A stretch of 64,000 nucleotides of DNA from Prostheceraeus crozeri (lineage: Eukaryota > Platyhelminthes > Polycladida > Euryleptidae). The translations under genes were made by a program, and so were the position numbers. The stretch lies in the NCBI GenBank assembly GCA_907163375.1, contig CAJQUW010011506.1, positions 186,001 to 250,000 on the forward strand, read 5' to 3'. Position 1 is the first letter of the stretch. Every line of letters begins with the position of its first letter. Shown piece after piece: positions 16,430-60,586 of this stretch. The notes under the pieces are model-generated. The model searched no databases, was not told the DNA's origin, and saw only the letters and a program-made list of their open reading frames with translations.

Positions 16430-16560
16430 TTTACAATACTTAAAATTACAAAACGATATTCTATTTAATAAAACTTGTATAATGAATAATTTGCATCCCA
16501 AATTTACAAACATTTTATCTTTCAATAAAGTAGCCTACTTATTTCATTATTCGATTTGAG
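16430..16560 (+). pseudogene. Penelope-like retroelement N-terminal scrap
   Basis: The plus strand encodes LQYLKLQNDILFNKTC followed by NNLHPKF, resembling the PLE N-terminal segment (KL...FL..C...N..PKF). The nucleotides at 16437-16470 are an inverted copy of 15793-15828, so this piece lies head-to-head with the preceding minus-strand fragment. It is too short to be a gene. Confidence 0.4.
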
Positions 16561-16914
16561 GACACCCAATTCGTTTGATAGATCGAAAACCATATCATTC
16601 GCTAAAGTGCTTTTCGGTCCAGCAACGCTGGCCATTTTCAAAGCAATGACATTTATTACATAAAAATTTCAAAATATCTATAACAGTATGCCAAGAAGTG
16701 GACATCATATGATAACGGGATTTCTACTAAATTTTAATATTAATACTTTTCTAATATTAATACTAATTTCAATTTTTGCTGTTATAGATATTTTGAAATT
16801 TGTATATAATAAATGTCATCGCTTTGAAAATGGCCAGCGGTGCTGGACCGAAAAACACTTTAGCGAATGATATGGTTTTCGATCCATCAAACGAATTGGG
16901 TGTCCTCAAATCGA
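16551..16914. repeat. Inverted repeat, 136-bp arms, with PLE-tail-like core
   Basis: Arms 16551-16686 and 16779-16914 are inverted complements with a few mismatches, separated by a 92-bp AT-rich spacer. Both ends carry TCGATTTGAGGACACCCAAT-type sequence. The right arm contains TTTGAAAATGGCCAGC..GCTGGACCGAAA at 16823-16852, a hairpin followed by GAAA like the PLE tail at 15.9 kb. This suggests two PLE 3' tails joined in inverted orientation. No target duplication is evident. Confidence 0.6.
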
Positions 16915-19556
16915 ACATTGACAACATCACCCAACCACTTATTATACCAACATTAATTCATATTATTGCAAACTAGCGTAAATTACAATTTACCGGTTTG
17001 TATTATTTCCTTAAACCCGTATTGTTAAAGGGTTAAACAGAACAGTTTTAAAACAATTTTCTAAAACTGCCTTTAAAACTCAGGTCGATAGACGGTTTTG
17101 TGTACTGCTTCAAAACCTTGTTTTTGATTTCAAATATAGTTTTAATCAAGATCGTGATTATAAGCACGTGTTTTGTAAACTGTGTTAAAAACACGGTTTA
17201 TGAAACCCTGCTTTTTTACTGTTTTAAAAAGGTTTTTATCTTCAGGTTTATTATTATGTTCTTTCATATTCTAGCATTTTGAATCGCTTCTTTTCAATTG
17301 ATCAACATATGAAATGTGTCGTTAGCCTCAAAATCAGCTTTGATGTGTGAAATAAAGCACCCTTAATATGTCGATTACACATGATATTCAGAAGTTTTTG
17401 AAGTTATAGGTCTGTTCATACTGCTCATGTCTGCTGACAGCTACTCGATTTCTTGAAAGTATTCTGAACCTTCATATTGACAACAAGTCATAAATAATCA
17501 AGATTGTTGTTTTACTTGTCTTAATATGTTCCCTCTTTCAATAAAACATTAAAATCATCAACATGTCGATGTCGATCATGATCCACATGGGCATTTTTTA
17601 AGCCTATTTTAGCTCTCAACCTTTTAAAACTGCACTTTCAAGCATGTTTTTACAAACGTGGTTTTTATATTTTGAATGTTCTATAAACTGTGATCGAAAT
17701 CCCAGTAGTTGATGAGTATCATGATCGACCTTTTGACGAACAACTTGATTTTATATTCTCGAAACAGATAAAAGCATGATTGATGTTTGATGATATGTCA
17801 TATTCGAGAACAGACGAGGAGTGAGCCAAATGGCAGTTATTCAGGTCTGCTCACATTTTTGAACTGAGGATGTACAATCTCTCTTTATTCTTTTTATGAT
17901 GCTTTTGAATAAAGAAAGCTACATGGAAACAAGCAAAATGTCTTGTGCAAAAGTTATGCTAGCAAAAGAAGCGCTTTAAAAACGTACAAGTTATTTAACA
18001 AAATCGGAAAAATCTGGCTCAGTCATATTGCGCTTGTAAAAATTGGGAAATGTTTTTCAAATCTAAGGATAATTAGATTTGTTTCTCTTATTCTCTGCAA
18101 GTGCTCATCGCTCTCTCTTTAATTGACTTTAAGATATTACTGATTTTTTTCAGTTGTTGCATTCAGTAATTTTCAGGTATACTATTTCAGATATACCACT
18201 CGTACATTGCACCAGTGTTTTCATGAAAGTTCTGAAATATTTGCAGAATTAGATATTCAGCCCCTTCGTTAGCCCCCTTCCTTCCTCATTCTGCCCCGCA
18301 ATCGCGTTATGAAGCCCCTATCTCTGCATGTAGCTCCTACATACATAATCCTGTATGTGCTGTATTTTCTTTTGCACTCATTCATCCTGCCTTAAAGCAT
18401 TTAAACTTTCAATAACCATGATTTAAACTCCTATGCTGCCTAGTTTTGTATATGCAGAGTGCCATGTATATGCAGATTGTCTATACTGAGTGCTCTATGT
18501 GCTGTATTCTACTTGGTGACTTGTGTTTTGTAGTATTCTAATGAAAGCCATGTGCTCTATTTCTCATGGTATTTTGCCACATCATCGCCACGAAACCCTG
18601 TTTGCTAAAGTAGTATGCCGGCAACACCTACATCTTCCACTGTTTCTAATTTAGGACAACTTCTGACATTTTTTATACAATGTGATTTTAGTGTATTTAT
18701 CAAAAGAGGAATTACTACAACTCTACTTTCATTGTAAAAGAAAGTAACATCAAATAATTGTATTTTTTATGATGGACATTATTTCTTTTATCGACAAATT
18801 TCCGGACCGCCAGATTAAGTTTCTGCAAGGAAACGAGGCTGAAAATGAGACTTGCACAGAATGATGTACAACCTATAGTTACCACGAATCTGCGCTTCAG
18901 TCGAGTTATACCGGGTTACTCTTCTTGTCAGTCAGGATCAAAGAAAAACACATGTAATGGTGAAGCAGATAGAAGTTTTAAGTAAAAATGAGATTTTCTA
19001 ATATTTTCAGATTAAGTCTATAGTAGTGTTGTGGTCAAAACTTGGGCTTCATCAGCTGTTCAGAGAAAATCGGGTTGAATTGTTAACTACTAGCTTTGTC
19101 AAAGCGACGAGAAAACAATTTTCCGTAACATGATACAATTCTTCATTCTAAAATAAACCGAGAAAATAATTTCAAACGATAAATATTTGGTAGCATTTTG
19201 TCTATGATTTATAGCAAACACAATCATACTTGAACTTCAGTTATTTTATTGAATTACTGATGCAGCCTACTTGGCGGCGAGGGCATTTTAGTATTACTAT
19301 ACTTCCACTATCAAATCAAGACTGACTTCATTTCAAAGACCTGAGGCACTGTCATCGTGTCGCATTATCAAGCAAATTTTATAATTTGTTTGTTCCTTAA
19401 TTCATCATGAAATCTTTATAAAAACCAGTTATTAAAATCCATTATTTCCTTGGATATGAGTTTTCCTTTCAGAATGCAGTTCACACAGTGCAGTATTTAC
19501 TTTGTGGTTCATTTATTCATTCTTATTTAATCCTTTCGTTGGTGCAATTTTGAGAA
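16915..19556. other. No gene; GTTTTAAAAC-rich patch at about 17030-17270 and 17600-17710
   Basis: GTTTTAAAAC-like words in both orientations recur (for example CAGTTTTAAAACAATTTT near 17040 and CTGTTTTAAAAAGG near 17219), and again near 17620. They may be the ends of an old AT-rich DNA element but no TIR or duplication can be fixed. A small C-rich patch lies at 18257-18300. No coding signal. Confidence 0.35.
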
Positions 19557-28394: not shown

Positions 28395-28571
28395 AGCACC
28401 ACCCAAAACATTTTCGAAAACTACAATCATCGCGAGGCACCTCTTATCTAATTAGTCAGACATCTTCAGGCGCAATCATCTGCTCCATAGTGCGCCTGAA
28501 GATGTTTTATTGATCAGACGAAAGGTGCCTCGCGATAATTGCAGTTTTCGAAATTTTTTTTGGGTGGTGCT
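28395..28571. repeat. Hairpin of inverted PLE-tail-like arms
   Basis: Arms 28395-28474 and 28491-28571 are inverted complements with several mismatches around a 16-bp spacer. Outer ends read AGCACCACCC and GGGTGGTGCT. The right arm contains CCTGAAGATG (28495-28504), then GACGAAAGGTGCC, a core order similar to PLE tails. It may be two PLE tails fused tail-to-tail or a MITE. No flanking duplication was found. Confidence 0.55.
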
Positions 28572-29414: not shown

Positions 29415-30970
29415 TAAATTGTCATCTAAGGAAACGTACGTAGCAGAAATATATGGTTTACCTAAACTCAACAAAAATATTGTTCCATTACGTCCAGTTG
29501 CCTCTCTGATTGACACTCCAACGCATTTCCTAGCAAAGTAGCTTCATCAAAAACTTTTATCTCAACCATATTAATTTTCAGTGAACAATTCAAACCAGTA
29601 TTTAAAGCAATTGAATTCAATGGCACTTGAAGAAAACGAGCTAATGGCTAGCTTTGCTTTGGTATATCTCTCTATCCATCTATTCCACTAGATCTTGCAA
29701 AATCTTGTGTTTCTGAAAAACTATACCGGAAGAAGTTACACCTTCACATATCTCTCTTTGCTAGGATACTTTTTTCTCATTCAAAGAAGAATATTTTGAG
29801 CAGATCAAAGGAACTCCTATGGGGTCACCAATTTCTGGATTTCTTTCAGAATTAGTCATGCAAAAACTTAAATCGTCTGAATTTTGCACTTTACAACCAA
29901 AATTTTGGATTCGATATGTTGATGACGAATTTGCAATCATTAAGAAAAATTCCATTCAACAAATGCTGAACACACTCAACTCCTTTCATCCATATCTCAA
30001 GTTCACACATGAAATTGAAAACTCCAATAACATTGCATTCCTAGACGTTTTAATAACGTGCTCAATCGACGGATCTTTGAATATTTCTGTATCTAGAAAG
30101 AGAGCTTACGATGGATGCATTCTTCGATTTGATAGCAATCACCCAACTGTTCACAAAAAGAATTCAGTTAGAACTTTATTTCAAAGAGTCATATCACACT
30201 GCAACACAGAACAATCTAAAAAGGATGAAATTCAGTATTTATATCAACATTTTAAGGATAATTGTCATCCGAAATCTTTTGTTTCAAGACTTTGGGAAGA
30301 ACTGAAATCAAAACAACAAACTGTCAATCAAAGTAGTGCGACACACTTCTCATAAAGACACATTTTTTACACTGCCTTATGTACGAGGAATTTCGAGAAC
30401 AGCCGCCCGAAAATTTCGTCAACACAACATCAACATCGCTCATCAACCAACAAACACAAGTCGGTCAGTATTTGGTTAACCAAAACGTAAGAAATCAGAC
30501 TCAGATAAACGCAACGCAATATTTAAATGTAGAATGCCATGTCAAAATTGCAATTCAGAACACATTGGATAAACAGGCAAACAACTTAAGGCTCGCAATA
30601 TCCAAGAGACAGGTCATAATTTCAATTGGGAACAAACCAAAAGTTTGAATACATCTCAACATCGCCATGGATGACTGTCTATGGAAGCATGGTGTTCTAA
30701 TAATAATTCCATCAATTGCCATATTCATCTTGAATATATATATCATTGTATGTTCATCTTCGTCAACAGCTAGTGTAATAAGGAGAGCTAAATTTTTGTT
30801 TTCTTTTATCAGCACATAAGGTACACGGGACTATATTAGCATAGTTTCATCATTTTCATGTAAATTTCATAATAATGTTTTGTAATACTTCTGTCACCCT
30901 ATCTTGCCTGATGACGTGTTGTAGTTGCAATAACAAAACTATGTGAATAAAAAATAATTTATCTTGATTG
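29415..30970 (+). pseudogene. Decayed Penelope-like retroelement with reverse transcriptase and GIY-YIG parts
   Basis: Ordered PLE blocks appear across several frames. YGLPKLNKNIVPLRPVAS (from about 29453) is the RT finger motif. IPLDLAKSCVSEKLY (about 29680) and KGTPMGSPISGFLSELV follow, and RYVDDEFA carries the catalytic YVDD at 29915-29926. Next are LDVLITC, then the linker LPYVRGISRTAARKFRQHN (about 30374). The GIY-YIG end comes last: CRMPCQNCNSEHIG, TGHNFNWEQTK and HRHGWLSMEAWC (to about 30700). A tail near 30900 has an exact CTGATGA followed by AATAAA. The longest intact frame is 178 codons (29819-30355). Frameshifts and stops elsewhere, and loss of the GIY-YIG start, make it inactive. 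PLEs copy their RNA with an RT related to telomerase and a GIY-YIG endonuclease. Confidence 0.82.
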
Positions 30971-45000: not shown

Positions 45001-45515
45001 TGCTCACTTTCTGTGGCTCGAATGACATTTCATTAAATTTTGACACATCATTATAGACCAAACCTATAATGGACAAATAAATATTGAAAAGTCTCAAGAA
45101 ATTATTATGACAGAAATAATTATATAATTTGCAGATGCCCAGCAACCATTTTGAGACTTAAAGAATTTAAATGTTCAAAGCCTTTAATGTCATTTCGATG
45201 TCAGATATTTTTAGATGCATTTATTAAGTATGCAAGCTTATAGGCTCACATGTGCTGCAGCCTGCAGTATTACCAAAATTAATAATTCAAATAATAATGA
45301 ATCAAAATAGTGTTAAATAAATAGCGCCACATAAATTAATATTACAATAACTAGAAATATTTTGTCATAAACTTTTTAAGAAGAGATACAAAATATAATT
45401 TCAATCGAAAAAAGTTGAGGATGGTTTTTCTTTTTGGGTCAGATGGACTCACTGACATGACATCCCTCAGACAGTGCATCAGTACATTCACCTCCTATTA
45501 ATAACATGCAAACCA

Positions 45516-47820
45516 GGGTTGTAACCGGTCAGGTTTTACTCGACCCAGAAGAACCGGTAACCGGTGTGGGAAATCTCAACCCAACCTGCTGGCCGACCGG
45601 CAATTTTCTAATGTCACGTTTTTTTCAATTACAGGTGCATGAATTAAGCTTGCATCCTTTTCTGACGAATCCTTCATATACATAGTCTCGTCCTTCAGAT
45701 ACGAAATCAGGAGTAGATTACATTGCACTCCGAAAACCTATTTAATGTAACTTATTCAATGCATAACAATAAGGCATAGAGTAAGTACGGTAGGTAGAGT
45801 GTCGACTCAAAAAATGTCTGTATACAGTGAAAGTTTTTATATCAAAAGATTCAGTTTTTCGAAGAGATTACGCTCCTGCGGTCTATAAAATTATTTGAGC
45901 AGTATCTAAAAATCCAAATTTTTGAAAATTTATATATTACCGACATGAAGCCCCGTTATAAGTAATTTGAAGCAAGCTAGATATCAATGACTTTTTAATC
46001 AAGCATCTTAATTAAGCGGAAATTAAGCTAATGATCTAGGAAATTTCATGAACCACATTATAATGCAAGTCCCTGCAAGTCTTCAAGGAAAAGTTGTAGT
46101 CCGGGAGCTAGCGTGAAGTTGTGCAGGGAACGAGGTAGTACATAAAACTTTCACATAGCAGTACACCTCTAACCTATTGCAAAACTTCGCGTCTGCCGGA
46201 TCAGATCATTTGCTTTTCAGAAATAGAGAGGATAACACAATCCTATGTATTTCCAGTGGTAAAATTGTGACATTTAAGGTGTTGACTCCATTTTTCGAAT
46301 TTTGCTCATAAAAGTTACACAAATTGGTATTTTGTTGAACTGGTTATTATAGAAATCATCTACAGATCATGATCTTTCAAATGAGTTATCATTCAGTGAC
46401 AGAGGATGAAGTAAAGTGTACAAACAGACACTTTTCGTTGGTGTAACTGCAAATTTTAACATAGAAATTTCAGGAAAATTGTTGATTTACTTTAACGAAA
46501 AGTGTCTGTTTGTACACTTTACTTCATCCTCTGTCACTGAATGATAACTCATTTGAAAGATCATGATCTGTAGATGATTTCTATAATAACCAGTTCAACA
46601 AAATACCAATTTGTGTAACTTTTATGAGCAAAATTCGAAAAAATGGAGTCAACACCTTAAATGTCACAATTTTACCACTGGAAATACATAGGATTGTGTT
46701 ATCCTCTCTATTTCTGAAAAGCAAATGATCTGATCCGGCAGACGCGAAGTTTTGCAATAGGTTAGAGGTGTACTGCTATGTGAAAGTTTTATGTACTACC
46801 TCGTTCCCTGCACAACTTCACGCTAGCTCCCGGACTATTGATGTCTCATTGAGCTTCAGCTGAGATGTCATTTTTTTAATTCAATTTTCAGCGGCATGAT
46901 TTTTATGACTCACAAGGCGTCATTTCTTGAATCTGAATAGTTATATGGACCCAGTAACATCTTTTAAAGTTAATTATGATAAGCTATTTTAAGAAAATAG
47001 TCCTATTATAATAAAGCTGAACTTTCAGCAATGGTAACCCATCAAATTGCTAATTTAACAGATTGCATCTCCAAATTGACATGACATGGAGGATTTGTGG
47101 AATACTATTCTCTATTCTGTATTGCTATCATTATCAGTCAGATTCGTGCACATTTCTCCAAAAATGTAGAAATTTGCATATCTCACAGGTGGTACTGGGT
47201 CTCGACTCAAGTTCATCTAACGAAATCAAAACTGTGTACACATTGGGGATTTAATAAATGCTGAGTTACTACTCTAGTTAATATACCTACTGCATGATAG
47301 TAGGTCTTTCAGCAGGTGACAGAATCTAACTGTGCACCGGCACTTTCGTATTAATTTTATTTCATGCAGATTTGAAATTCTTCTCTGATATAGTGAATAT
47401 TTTGAAGTTTGAACTTGTCGAATCATAGCCGAATTGACTGATCACATCTATTTTAAGTAATCGGTCTATTTTCCCTTTAACATGAAGCATTGTAAACTGA
47501 TGTAGACGATGAAGAAACTCACAGGGCCTTCTAACCGCAACTCAAATTTCGTGTCAAGATCATTTCACGATGCGATAATTGAATAATACAGCATGCAGAG
47601 GGGCAATCACACATATATTTACATCTTGAATTGCTGCACAGATGACCTTTATACAAATCTTCACTCGCTTTTAATTGTGTTTAATAACTTGTCATGTATT
47701 TTTCAGATGATCCTAAACCGGCTATTTAACCGATGCCGTTCTGCCGGTCGACAAAACTTCAACCAAACTGGTGACCGGCACTGTTCAACACCGGCAACCA
47801 GTTGCAACCCTGATGCAAAC
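45516..47820. mobile_element. hAT-type non-autonomous element with 8-bp target duplication
   Basis: The element proper is 45524-47812 (2289 bp). The left end CAGGGTTGTAACCGGT and the complement of the right end, CAGGGTTGCAACTGGT, are inverted repeats. ATGCAAAC is present immediately outside both ends (45516-45523 and 47813-47820), a perfect 8-bp duplication diagnostic of hAT insertion. Subterminal ACCGGT/GCCGGT words recur on both sides. No hAT transposase (no RW or hATC dimerisation motif) is recognisable; chance frames of 63-99 codons at 47063-47254 and 47593-47892 have no domain. The central third is a separate near-perfect palindrome (46097-46837). One TIR mismatch set and drifting subterminal repeats suggest moderate age. 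Confidence 0.85.
46097..46837. repeat. Near-perfect palindrome, 343/344-bp arms
   Basis: The left arm 46097-46439 and right arm 46494-46837 are reverse complements. By eye I find one 1-base indel (five T at the left versus six A at the right, inside the TTCGAA block) and no substitutions. The spacer is 54 bp. Outer ends are TAGTCCGGGAGCTAGCG and its complement. TTG lies directly outside each end (46094-46096, 46838-46840), possibly a 3-bp duplication. It codes for nothing. A transcript through it would fold into a long double-stranded hairpin. It could be a recent foldback transposon nested in the hAT element, or a secondary inverted duplication. Confidence 0.9.
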
Positions 47821-56610: not shown

Positions 56611-58475
56611 CAGTAAGGAGCATTTTATTATGGACACAGAATAAATTTATGTGAAATCATCAATTCTTGAGCAACATTTTTTCCAGCTTCTATATTTCGA
56701 TCTTATACATGTACATGCACTGTGCTATTAAATATCTCATTTACTTCATCTGTGATACATTTTGTGTCATGCAGATCATATCTGACCCATGAGTCAATCC
56801 AGCATTGAAATTTGAATTATCACTTCTGTCTTCATATATCTATCGTATAAAATGTCATTTCAATAGTCAGAGAATAGATCAGCTCTGCAAATTAACGAAG
56901 TCATGTGACTATGACTAACTAAACTAGACTGCAATGGTCATGCAATGGATCCCTTCATGTGATTATCCCATCAGATGGCTGCTGTTGAATTCTTCAACAC
57001 AACCGCCAGTGCAGTTAACCACAGTTCAGTTCAGTACACCATGGGTAAACGCAAGGACGTCAGAAGGATCGATCGAAGGATCATCTCATGAAATTTCGCA
57101 AACCGAAGCATTGCTAACTGCCGGAAATCTGACGATGCGACAGATAGCAGCACAAGTTCAAATAAGTCACGGCAGTGTGATGAACATATAAAGAAACGCA
57201 TGCAAGCTGGATTGCATGGACCGGTACGTAAGGGTCGATGTGACAAGAAGCCAAAAACAAATGTCCGAAAAGACAGAACGATGCTTCGCTATTTAAAGAG
57301 GGATCCACTTATGTCGGCAAAGCAAGTGCAAGGTGAAATGCTCAATGACCATGGCATAGAGTTATCAGTACATACCATTCGTCGAAGACTGAACAGCATG
57401 GGCTGTCGATCGGTTAAACCTCGAAGAAGGTTAAAATTGACGCCAGCCATGAAAGCAAAACGATTGGCATTTGCTAGAGCTCATGCAGATTGGACAGTAG
57501 AAGATTGGAGAAGAGTTTGCTTTAGCGACGAGAGTACTTTTGAGTGCCAAACAGCAAGCAGACCTCGTCTTTGGCAGATCCCAGGAAGCCCACCTCCAAT
57601 CCGCGAAAACGTCAAGCATCCAACTAAAGTGATGGTCTGGGGGGTAATATACCACAAAGGCGCGGGCCGTCTTCACATCGTCCATGGGATGATGAATCAA
57701 AGCCAATATCGCCTCGTTCTTGAAAGTCGACTGATTCCGCAAATTGAAGATTCGTTTCTTGGCGGGCCCGACGACACGGTTTTTATGCATGATAGTGCGC
57801 CTTGTCACAAGGCACGCTCCATCACATAATATCTCAACTCCACCAACCTGACAGTGCTTCCATGGCCTGGAAACTCACCAGACCTTAACCCAATAGAAAA
57901 TGAATTGGGTTTTGTCAAGTCTATTATGGCACAAACAACCACTACAACAAGGCAACAGCTTATTTCTTCGGCTTATTGGCCATCTGGTATCGTGATCCGC
58001 GAATGCTCGAAAAAGTTCAGAATTCTATTGATAGCATGCCGAAGAGAATGCGAGATGTCATTGCGGCGAGGGGTGGTCACACACACTATTGATCAAGGCC
58101 TATTTGAATCTTTGAACGTACTTTATTTTTGAATTTTTATGATTCTCTTTTTATGAGCTGTTGCTTCCATGATTTTTGAAGATGAATACTTCAAATGTGT
58201 CGAATATCTTTGTTTTATCTTTGAATCAAAAAACATTCGTTTTTCGATGAAATTCGACAAAAAATAGTTATTCTCCTATGTTCCGATATCAACAGCTGGC
58301 GGGTTCAACATAATTGCAATGTAATTTTTATATACAACATATTATATCGTACTTTGTATGTGTAAGGTATTTAATAGTGTAGAACACTCACATAACACAA
58401 AGAGAAAAGTTAGAAGGTATGTTGTATGAAAATCTAGTATTTTCACTTGTGTCCATAATAAAATGCTCCCTACTG
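56611..58475 (+). mobile_element. Complete Tc1-family transposon (1865 bp), coding-dead
   Basis: The terminal inverted repeats are 28 bp with one mismatch: left CAGTAAGGAGCATTTTATTA.., right (complement) CAGTAGGGAGCATTTTATTA... TA flanks both ends (56609-56610, 58476-58477), the signature of Tc1/mariner integration. It carries one transposase relic (57041-58092) of the DD34E type on the plus strand, with a 430-bp leader and a 380-bp trailer. The short, nearly matching TIRs show the ends are preserved better than the gene, so the copy may once have been mobilised in trans. Confidence 0.93.
57041..58092 (+). pseudogene. Tc1 transposase, DD34E, frameshifted
   Basis: Start MGKRKD at 57041 is followed by a stop at 57089 unless the frame shifts. 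The HTH region reads LLTAGNLTMRQIAAQVQISH in a second frame (to 57188). The main frame then resumes from about 57195 with SVHTIRRRLNSMGC. The catalytic triad is intact in sequence: Asp in CFSDES (57527-57529), Asp in FMHDSAPCH (57791-57793), and Glu in PDLNPIEN (57896-57898), with 34 residues between the last two. MVWGVIYHKG and LPWPGNSPDLNP are standard Tc1 blocks. A TAA at 57827-57829 interrupts the catalytic domain, and a frameshift near 57970 is needed to reach the true end (SMPKRMRDVIAARGGHTHY then TGA, 58090-58092). With at least three frameshifts and one stop it makes no functional enzyme. Confidence 0.9.
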
Positions 58476-60313: not shown

Positions 60314-60586
60314 CAATTTTGGAAATGAATGTAAAGAAAAAATTCTCTCCAAGTTTTACGACTTCTTTGTATTTTAAAATAAATTACCCGACGCGTTTCG
60401 TCTACACAGACTGTGTCAAGGGTGACTGAAGCGTTTTGGTCACCCTTGACACAGTCTGTGTAGACGAAACGCGTCGGGCAATTTATTTTTAAATACAAAG
60501 AGGTCGTAAAACTGGGAAAGAATTTTTTCTTTACATTCGTTATGACTGACCTCACGTACAGACAACTCTACCAATTTTGGAAATGA
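60314..60586. mobile_element. PLE-tail hairpin between 15-bp direct repeats
   Basis: Arms 60327-60426 and 60439-60538 are inverted complements with a 12-bp loop and only a few mismatches over 100 bp. The right arm carries GACGAAACGCGTCGGG (60464-60478 region) and then an AT-rich stretch, a sequence style seen at PLE 3' ends. CAATTTTGGAAATGA occurs identically on both sides (60314-60328, 60572-60586), a 15-bp direct repeat that looks like a target duplication and overlaps the left arm by 2 bp. This fits insertion of two PLE tails in inverted orientation. There is no coding sequence. Confidence 0.65.

Follow-up and report, generated by a model that had tools for sequence, protein, structure and literature searches.

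Long palindromic foldback elements dispersed in the genome of Prostheceraeus crozeri, with variants shared between the two arms of single copies

In this work we have examined a palindrome which interrupts a hAT-like element of Prostheceraeus crozeri, together with its relatives in the genome assembly. It lies in a stretch of 64,000 nucleotides, the whole of which is referred to below as the window. The inverted repeat occupies window positions 46097-46837, 741 nt in all, and was recovered with exactly the limits that the original prediction had given it. Its arms are 342 and 343 nt long and align over 343 columns with 99.7% identity, a single 1-nt gap and no substitutions; its ends, TAGTCCGGGAGCTAGCG, also match the earlier reading (Table 1). 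The RNA fold computed for the palindrome has an energy of -636 kcal/mol, whereas 20 shuffled sequences average -163. Three further long inverted repeats are present in the window, at 16544-16921, 60324-60541 and 28402-28563, with arms of 143, 103 and 73 nt and an arm complementarity of 94, 94 and 82%, respectively. The window also holds a Tc1/mariner-like transposase frame (57092-57829, plus strand; HTH_Tnp_Tc3_2 and DDE_3) and, at 29765-30355 on the same strand, a weak reverse-transcriptase match which falls under the curated cut-off.

Table 1. Features of the palindrome and its host element (window coordinates) and members of the second palindromic family (coordinates within each locus)
Feature	Position	Strand	Remarks
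hAT-like host element interrupted by the palindrome	45514..47812		about 1.55 kb without the palindrome
Host 8-bp duplication, left	45506..45513		ATGCAAAC
Host 8-bp duplication, right	47813..47820		ATGCAAAC
Target duplication TTG, left copy	46094..46096
Target duplication TTG, right copy	46838..46840
Left arm	46097..46438	+	342 nt, starts with TAGTCCGGGAGCTAGCG
Spacer	46439..46494		56 nt, common to other copies, in either orientation
Right arm	46495..46837	-	343 nt, inverted, 1 extra base and 0 substitutions relative to the left arm
Site of the window copy's own 2-bp deletion, left arm	46153..46174	+
Matching 2-bp deletion site, right arm	46760..46781	-
Second palindromic family, member L087	31-418
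Second palindromic family, member L088
Second palindromic family, member L089
Second palindromic family, member L090
Second palindromic family, member L091	31-535

The host was expected to be a hAT-type element with drifted termini, and it is indeed bounded on both sides by 8-bp duplications (ATGCAAAC), its terminal ends being diverged. When the two flanks of the window copy, joined with one TTG, were run against the assembly, an uninterrupted match was found in all 40 places scored of 3602 candidates, at 90-92% identity; the form of this query favours empty sites, so the result means that empty sites are common and not that every relative of the host is empty. Three of these relatives were aligned and each has one TTG, two of them lying on the same contig and looking alike. 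The TTG target duplication, previously only suspected, is thus confirmed by the single-TTG empty site in hAT relatives. The proposal that the insertion is younger than its host also holds, since the empty sites among these relatives make the palindrome younger than the spread of the host family. In another case, locus L048 is an empty site for the palindrome of L045, provided that the left duplication of L045 has lost one base.

Does the palindrome belong to a family? A search with one arm for other copies having the same ends and spacer had been proposed, and a dispersed foldback family with ends TAGTCCGGGAGCTAGCG was found in the assembly (2.05 Gb in 14165 contigs, the window included). The left arm gave at least 56 matches, with 40 of 362 candidates scored, and the 20-nt terminus, with at most 1 mismatch, occurs 6048 times, against 0 for a reversed-pattern control. 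The latter count suggests about 3000 copies. We fetched 39 further places, and the first sample analysed comprised 32 copies; at most of these places an entire palindrome is present, which measures about 746 nt, has arms of about 345 nt and shares the spacer of the window copy. The second sample comprised the first 30 places of the terminus listing in contig order, each with at least one exact 20-nt terminus. By our own count these represent 26 distinct sites, of which 6 have one arm with little or part of the other and 2 have only a 20-25-nt terminus piece. In the remaining 18 both arms are wholly or mostly present, so the arms are not confined to fragments of a single orientation, the outcome named beforehand as refuting the proposal. 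From 51 places of suitable length, 7 of which were dropped for flanks identical to another's, we obtained a combined set of 44 complete copies, all distinct; one-armed and rearranged copies are excluded from it. Long inverted arms make up most of the non-coding element (342 + 343 of 741 nt), and the dispersed copies have a target duplication of fixed length, as is the case for foldbacks and palindromic MITEs. The family was not found in the literature, searched by description and not by sequence, and we rate it as a further case of a known type, foldbacks and palindromic MITEs being already known.

Among 15 one-armed or partial copies inspected, 8 end at the spacer or within about 55 nt of it (L060, L061, L074, L042, L037, L046, L043 and L055). 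Such a break-off near the spacer would follow from cleavage of an extruded hairpin, or from assembly trouble. Insertion of other inverted repeats into palindrome copies seems, by eye, to have taken place in L086 and within the spacer of L035, which is enlarged. L029, L033 and L034 are three copies embedded in a larger stretch, 99.9% identical, that recurs on three contigs; either the stretch was duplicated as a segment or it is a larger transposon that contains the palindrome. At L053:1510-2154 a hAT C-terminal dimerisation domain (PF05699) overlaps the site of a 25-nt terminus piece. Locus L078 (G000:C6227) contains COX1 and COX2 frames which read well with the invertebrate mitochondrial code, its open COX1 frame extending past the usual ends.

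An exact 3-bp repeat adjoins the ends in 22 of the 32 first-sample copies (0-2 of 32 in off-register controls), and in none of the 32 is there an exact flank repeat longer than 3 bp. In the combined set 34 of the 44 copies have an exact 3-bp target duplication, with 20 different sequences. The 8-10-bp duplications of Mutator-type foldbacks were not seen in the 32 copies, and the 8-bp duplication of hAT elements is present at the host and absent from the palindrome. Nor do 3-bp duplications of 20 sequences agree with the TA duplication of Tc1/mariner elements or with the TWA target of PIF/Harbinger, TAA or TTA accounting for only 9 of the 34. Both the length and the sequence of the duplication therefore speak against an assignment to hAT, Mutator or Tc1/mariner, and against strict TWA targeting; Harbinger relatives with a relaxed target are possible. 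Target duplications are 3 bp for Zator and 3-4 bp for AcademX according to an excerpt of PMC10045372, and those of the palindrome family have the length expected for either. The likeness to these two is one of length, and on this basis a Zator- or AcademX-like enzyme is possible. A profile search with PF07592, which we take to be the nearest Pfam model for Zator, gave no match in the assembly and none in any of 14 control genomes either, and so has no bearing on Zator.

No transposase with the ends of the palindrome was found in the places sharing its 17-nt or 14-nt terminus that were read. Relatives were sought as the terminus (17 or 14 nt) followed by foreign sequence, with a filter which excludes copies of the palindrome and which, by our own arithmetic, passes about 18% of unrelated sequence and misses relatives sharing more than about 20 nt. 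With the 17-nt terminus a single place with another interior passed, and it has no frame longer than 64 amino acids in the 1.6 kb read. The 14-nt terminus gave 14 places, and the 5 of these that were fetched form a second palindromic family. Its outer 14 nt, TAGTCCGGGAGCTA, are the same as in the main family and it also has an inverted-repeat structure; its interior is different. In the four members of which both ends were seen (L087, L088, L090 and L091; not L089) the length is 244-505 nt. The members are 82-92% alike, and the family is more diverged than the main one. Their other ends, read outward, are TAGGACGG or TAGTCCGG, and L091 has 22 nt in common with the main family at 95%. Of the four members just named only L090 has an exact 3-bp duplication (ATT), and the ORF lists of two of the five fetched members contain no frame of transposase length. 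As judged from these sequences, two palindromic families, non-coding as far as inspected, have their outermost ends in common.

Several candidates for a coding relative were rejected. A 26-kb autonomous element on contig C94 had been suggested by an inverted pair of flanks; it was discarded because its left copy lacks the terminus and because the sequence that the flanks share belongs to another repeat, which abuts a 25-nt terminus piece. L048 was considered as a sibling element, and its 20-nt terminus piece (L048:1501-1520) proved to have a counterpart at the matching place in L045 (L045:847-866), inside a larger repeat which is 92-93% alike between them. The piece may be what is left of an old insertion or excision. 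The larger repeat looks Tigger/pogo-like by eye, and the one frame scanned has no Pfam match. The one-armed copies were also not accepted as autonomous elements: in the 15 inspected, the sequence past the spacer shares only pieces of the palindrome.

If the two arms of a copy changed independently, most variants present in exactly two arms would be expected in different copies. Among the first-sample copies, however, 16 of 36 such variants occupied the pair of arms of one copy (shuffled mean 0.87, 0 of 10000 as high), and in the set of 44 copies this was true of 21 of 41 (shuffled mean 0.78, 0 of 5000 as high). The 15 copies of the contig-order sample gave 17 of 19 (shuffled mean 1.15), and the 29 others of the 44, which represent the best-match sample, gave 10 of 30 (shuffled mean 0.84). 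Arm divergence was 1.9% within a copy and 3.1% between copies for the set of 44, and 2.3% and 4.2%, respectively, for the contig-order sample. Single-arm variants common to two copies were found on the same side in 43 cases and on opposite sides in 50, so the arms keep no side memory. The residual differences between arms are clustered when all are counted (0 of 2000 simulations as extreme) and only weakly so once differences within 10 nt are merged (63 of 2000). Sharing is also rarer in the outer 50 nt, with 2 shared and 54 unshared variants there versus 44 and 260 (p 0.027). This clustering and the rarer sharing favour partial conversion tracts, without settling the matter. As a test of conversion between duplicates, L029, L033 and L034 were uninformative, all lying in one larger near-identical repeat.

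Four variants, those of the window copy, L063, L020 and L049, were followed through the assembly; each had been chosen for its presence in both arms of one copy. Searched as an exact 22-mer, the 2-bp deletion of the window copy has two occurrences in the assembly, one in the left and one in the right arm of this copy. The L063 variant has 4 occurrences, in both arms of two insertions whose right flanks differ (the left end of the second lies outside the fetched stretch), and the homogenised state found at two sites was probably carried by transposition. Unlike it, the window deletion is found at one site only. For the L020 variant there are 17 occurrences at 12 loci (both arms at 5, one arm only at 7), and for the L049 variant 12 at 9 loci (both arms at 3, one arm only at 6). 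With the chosen copies left out, both arms carry the variant at 7 of 20 other loci (L063 1/1, L020 4/11, L049 2/8; the window deletion adds no locus to this count), where random placement would give at most 0.023 copies. Since an arm with a further change close to the variant escapes an exact pattern, the single-arm counts may be too high. Homogenisation is nevertheless partial, since the partner arm is the joint nearest arm for only 24 of 64 arms in the first sample and, at many of the L020 and L049 loci, the variant was seen in one arm only. The arms had been supposed to be either young or kept identical by gene conversion, and with 21 of 41 variants shared and a private deletion in both arms it looks like both.

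We hypothesize that the palindrome is, very probably, a non-autonomous cut-and-paste foldback or palindromic MITE in which one arm is at times repaired from the other. Two inverted arms make up nearly all of the element, which is about 746 nt long (741 in the window). A transposase supplied from another locus would recognise the TAGTCCGGGAGCTA ends observed here and move the element by a cut-and-paste route, and insertion at mostly A+T-rich sites would generate the 3-bp duplication which we see at the flanks and, as a single copy, in the empty sites. At times one arm would be repaired from the other, so that both arms of a copy gain the same new variants. Sharing of private variants is observed, and arm-to-arm gene conversion or fold-back templated repair could produce it, the copying taking place either in situ or in a parent copy during transposition. 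The window copy would have been inserted into an older hAT element. Whether the roughly 3000 palindromes undergo continuing in-place conversion between arms, without side memory, each insertion being one mirrored unit, is a question on which we consider the chances to be even.

Could the similarity of the arms reflect youth only, with copies descending from perfect masters and their arms then decaying independently, without arm-to-arm repair? Every sampled copy is recent by divergence, most have arm-specific differences, and L063 indicates that a both-arm state is heritable by transposition. However, this explanation calls for numerous masters that differ in their both-arm variants, with an arm-to-arm copying step in each of them, and the exact 22-mer of the window deletion is in no other copy of the assembly; we consider it unlikely. 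The same deletion speaks against hot sites, at which shared variants would arise as independent mutations. Among the 16 shared variants of the first sample there is one CpG transition, and a variable T-rich stretch contains some of them, but the other 15 are not CpG transitions, L063 carries linked changes in both arms, and no preference for the partner arm would be expected, so that this origin is scarcely conceivable.

It also seems highly improbable that the sharing was created by assembly or polishing. The 8 of 15 one-armed or partial copies which end at or near the spacer could point to assembly trouble at the centre, but 30 of the 32 first-sample copies retain at least one substitution difference between their arms, which means that the arms were resolved, and the duplications and empty sites represent real insertions. 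Polishing, moreover, would be unlikely to move a private variant between arms amid thousands of near-identical copies. As to a use by the host, a transcript of the palindrome is predicted to fold almost perfectly and could be a source of long dsRNA for siRNA. Its copy number, its target duplications and its position inside another transposon are instead in keeping with a selfish element, and such a use is very unlikely.

Two known foldback systems come close to the palindrome family. Galileo, a foldback-like element of the P superfamily in Drosophila, is described in an excerpt of PMC3573991 as having long inverted ends 98-100% alike within a copy, between which exchange and conversion are proposed. 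As far as that excerpt goes, the palindromes are like Galileo in both respects. Target duplications of Galileo are 7 bp long; the palindrome family, unlike Galileo, has a 3-bp duplication and other ends. Tetris of Drosophila virilis, in the excerpted account of PMC4079207, is a non-coding foldback whose outer ends are common to a second non-coding family, the MITE DAIBAM, and the transposase was not found. Our two families resemble this pair, as that account presents it, in being non-coding, in having outermost ends in common and in the transposase not being found. By the same account Tetris differs in its 8-10-bp duplications and the tandem repeats inside its ends, whereas the palindrome family has 3 bp and no such arm repeats were seen.

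Near-perfect palindromes of great length are usually regarded as unstable. Here, seemingly, thousands of them are scattered over the genome, their targets duplicated and their empty sites identifiable, and the family raises the question of what transposase acts on inverted arms of such length. Ordinary in kind, the family is useful as a natural assay of conversion between palindrome arms: private variants tag single copies, so arm-to-arm repair can be read copy by copy. If conversion does take place in situ, its rates and tract lengths in natural palindromes would be measurable, and the family would serve as a record, across the genome, of conversion within long palindromes.
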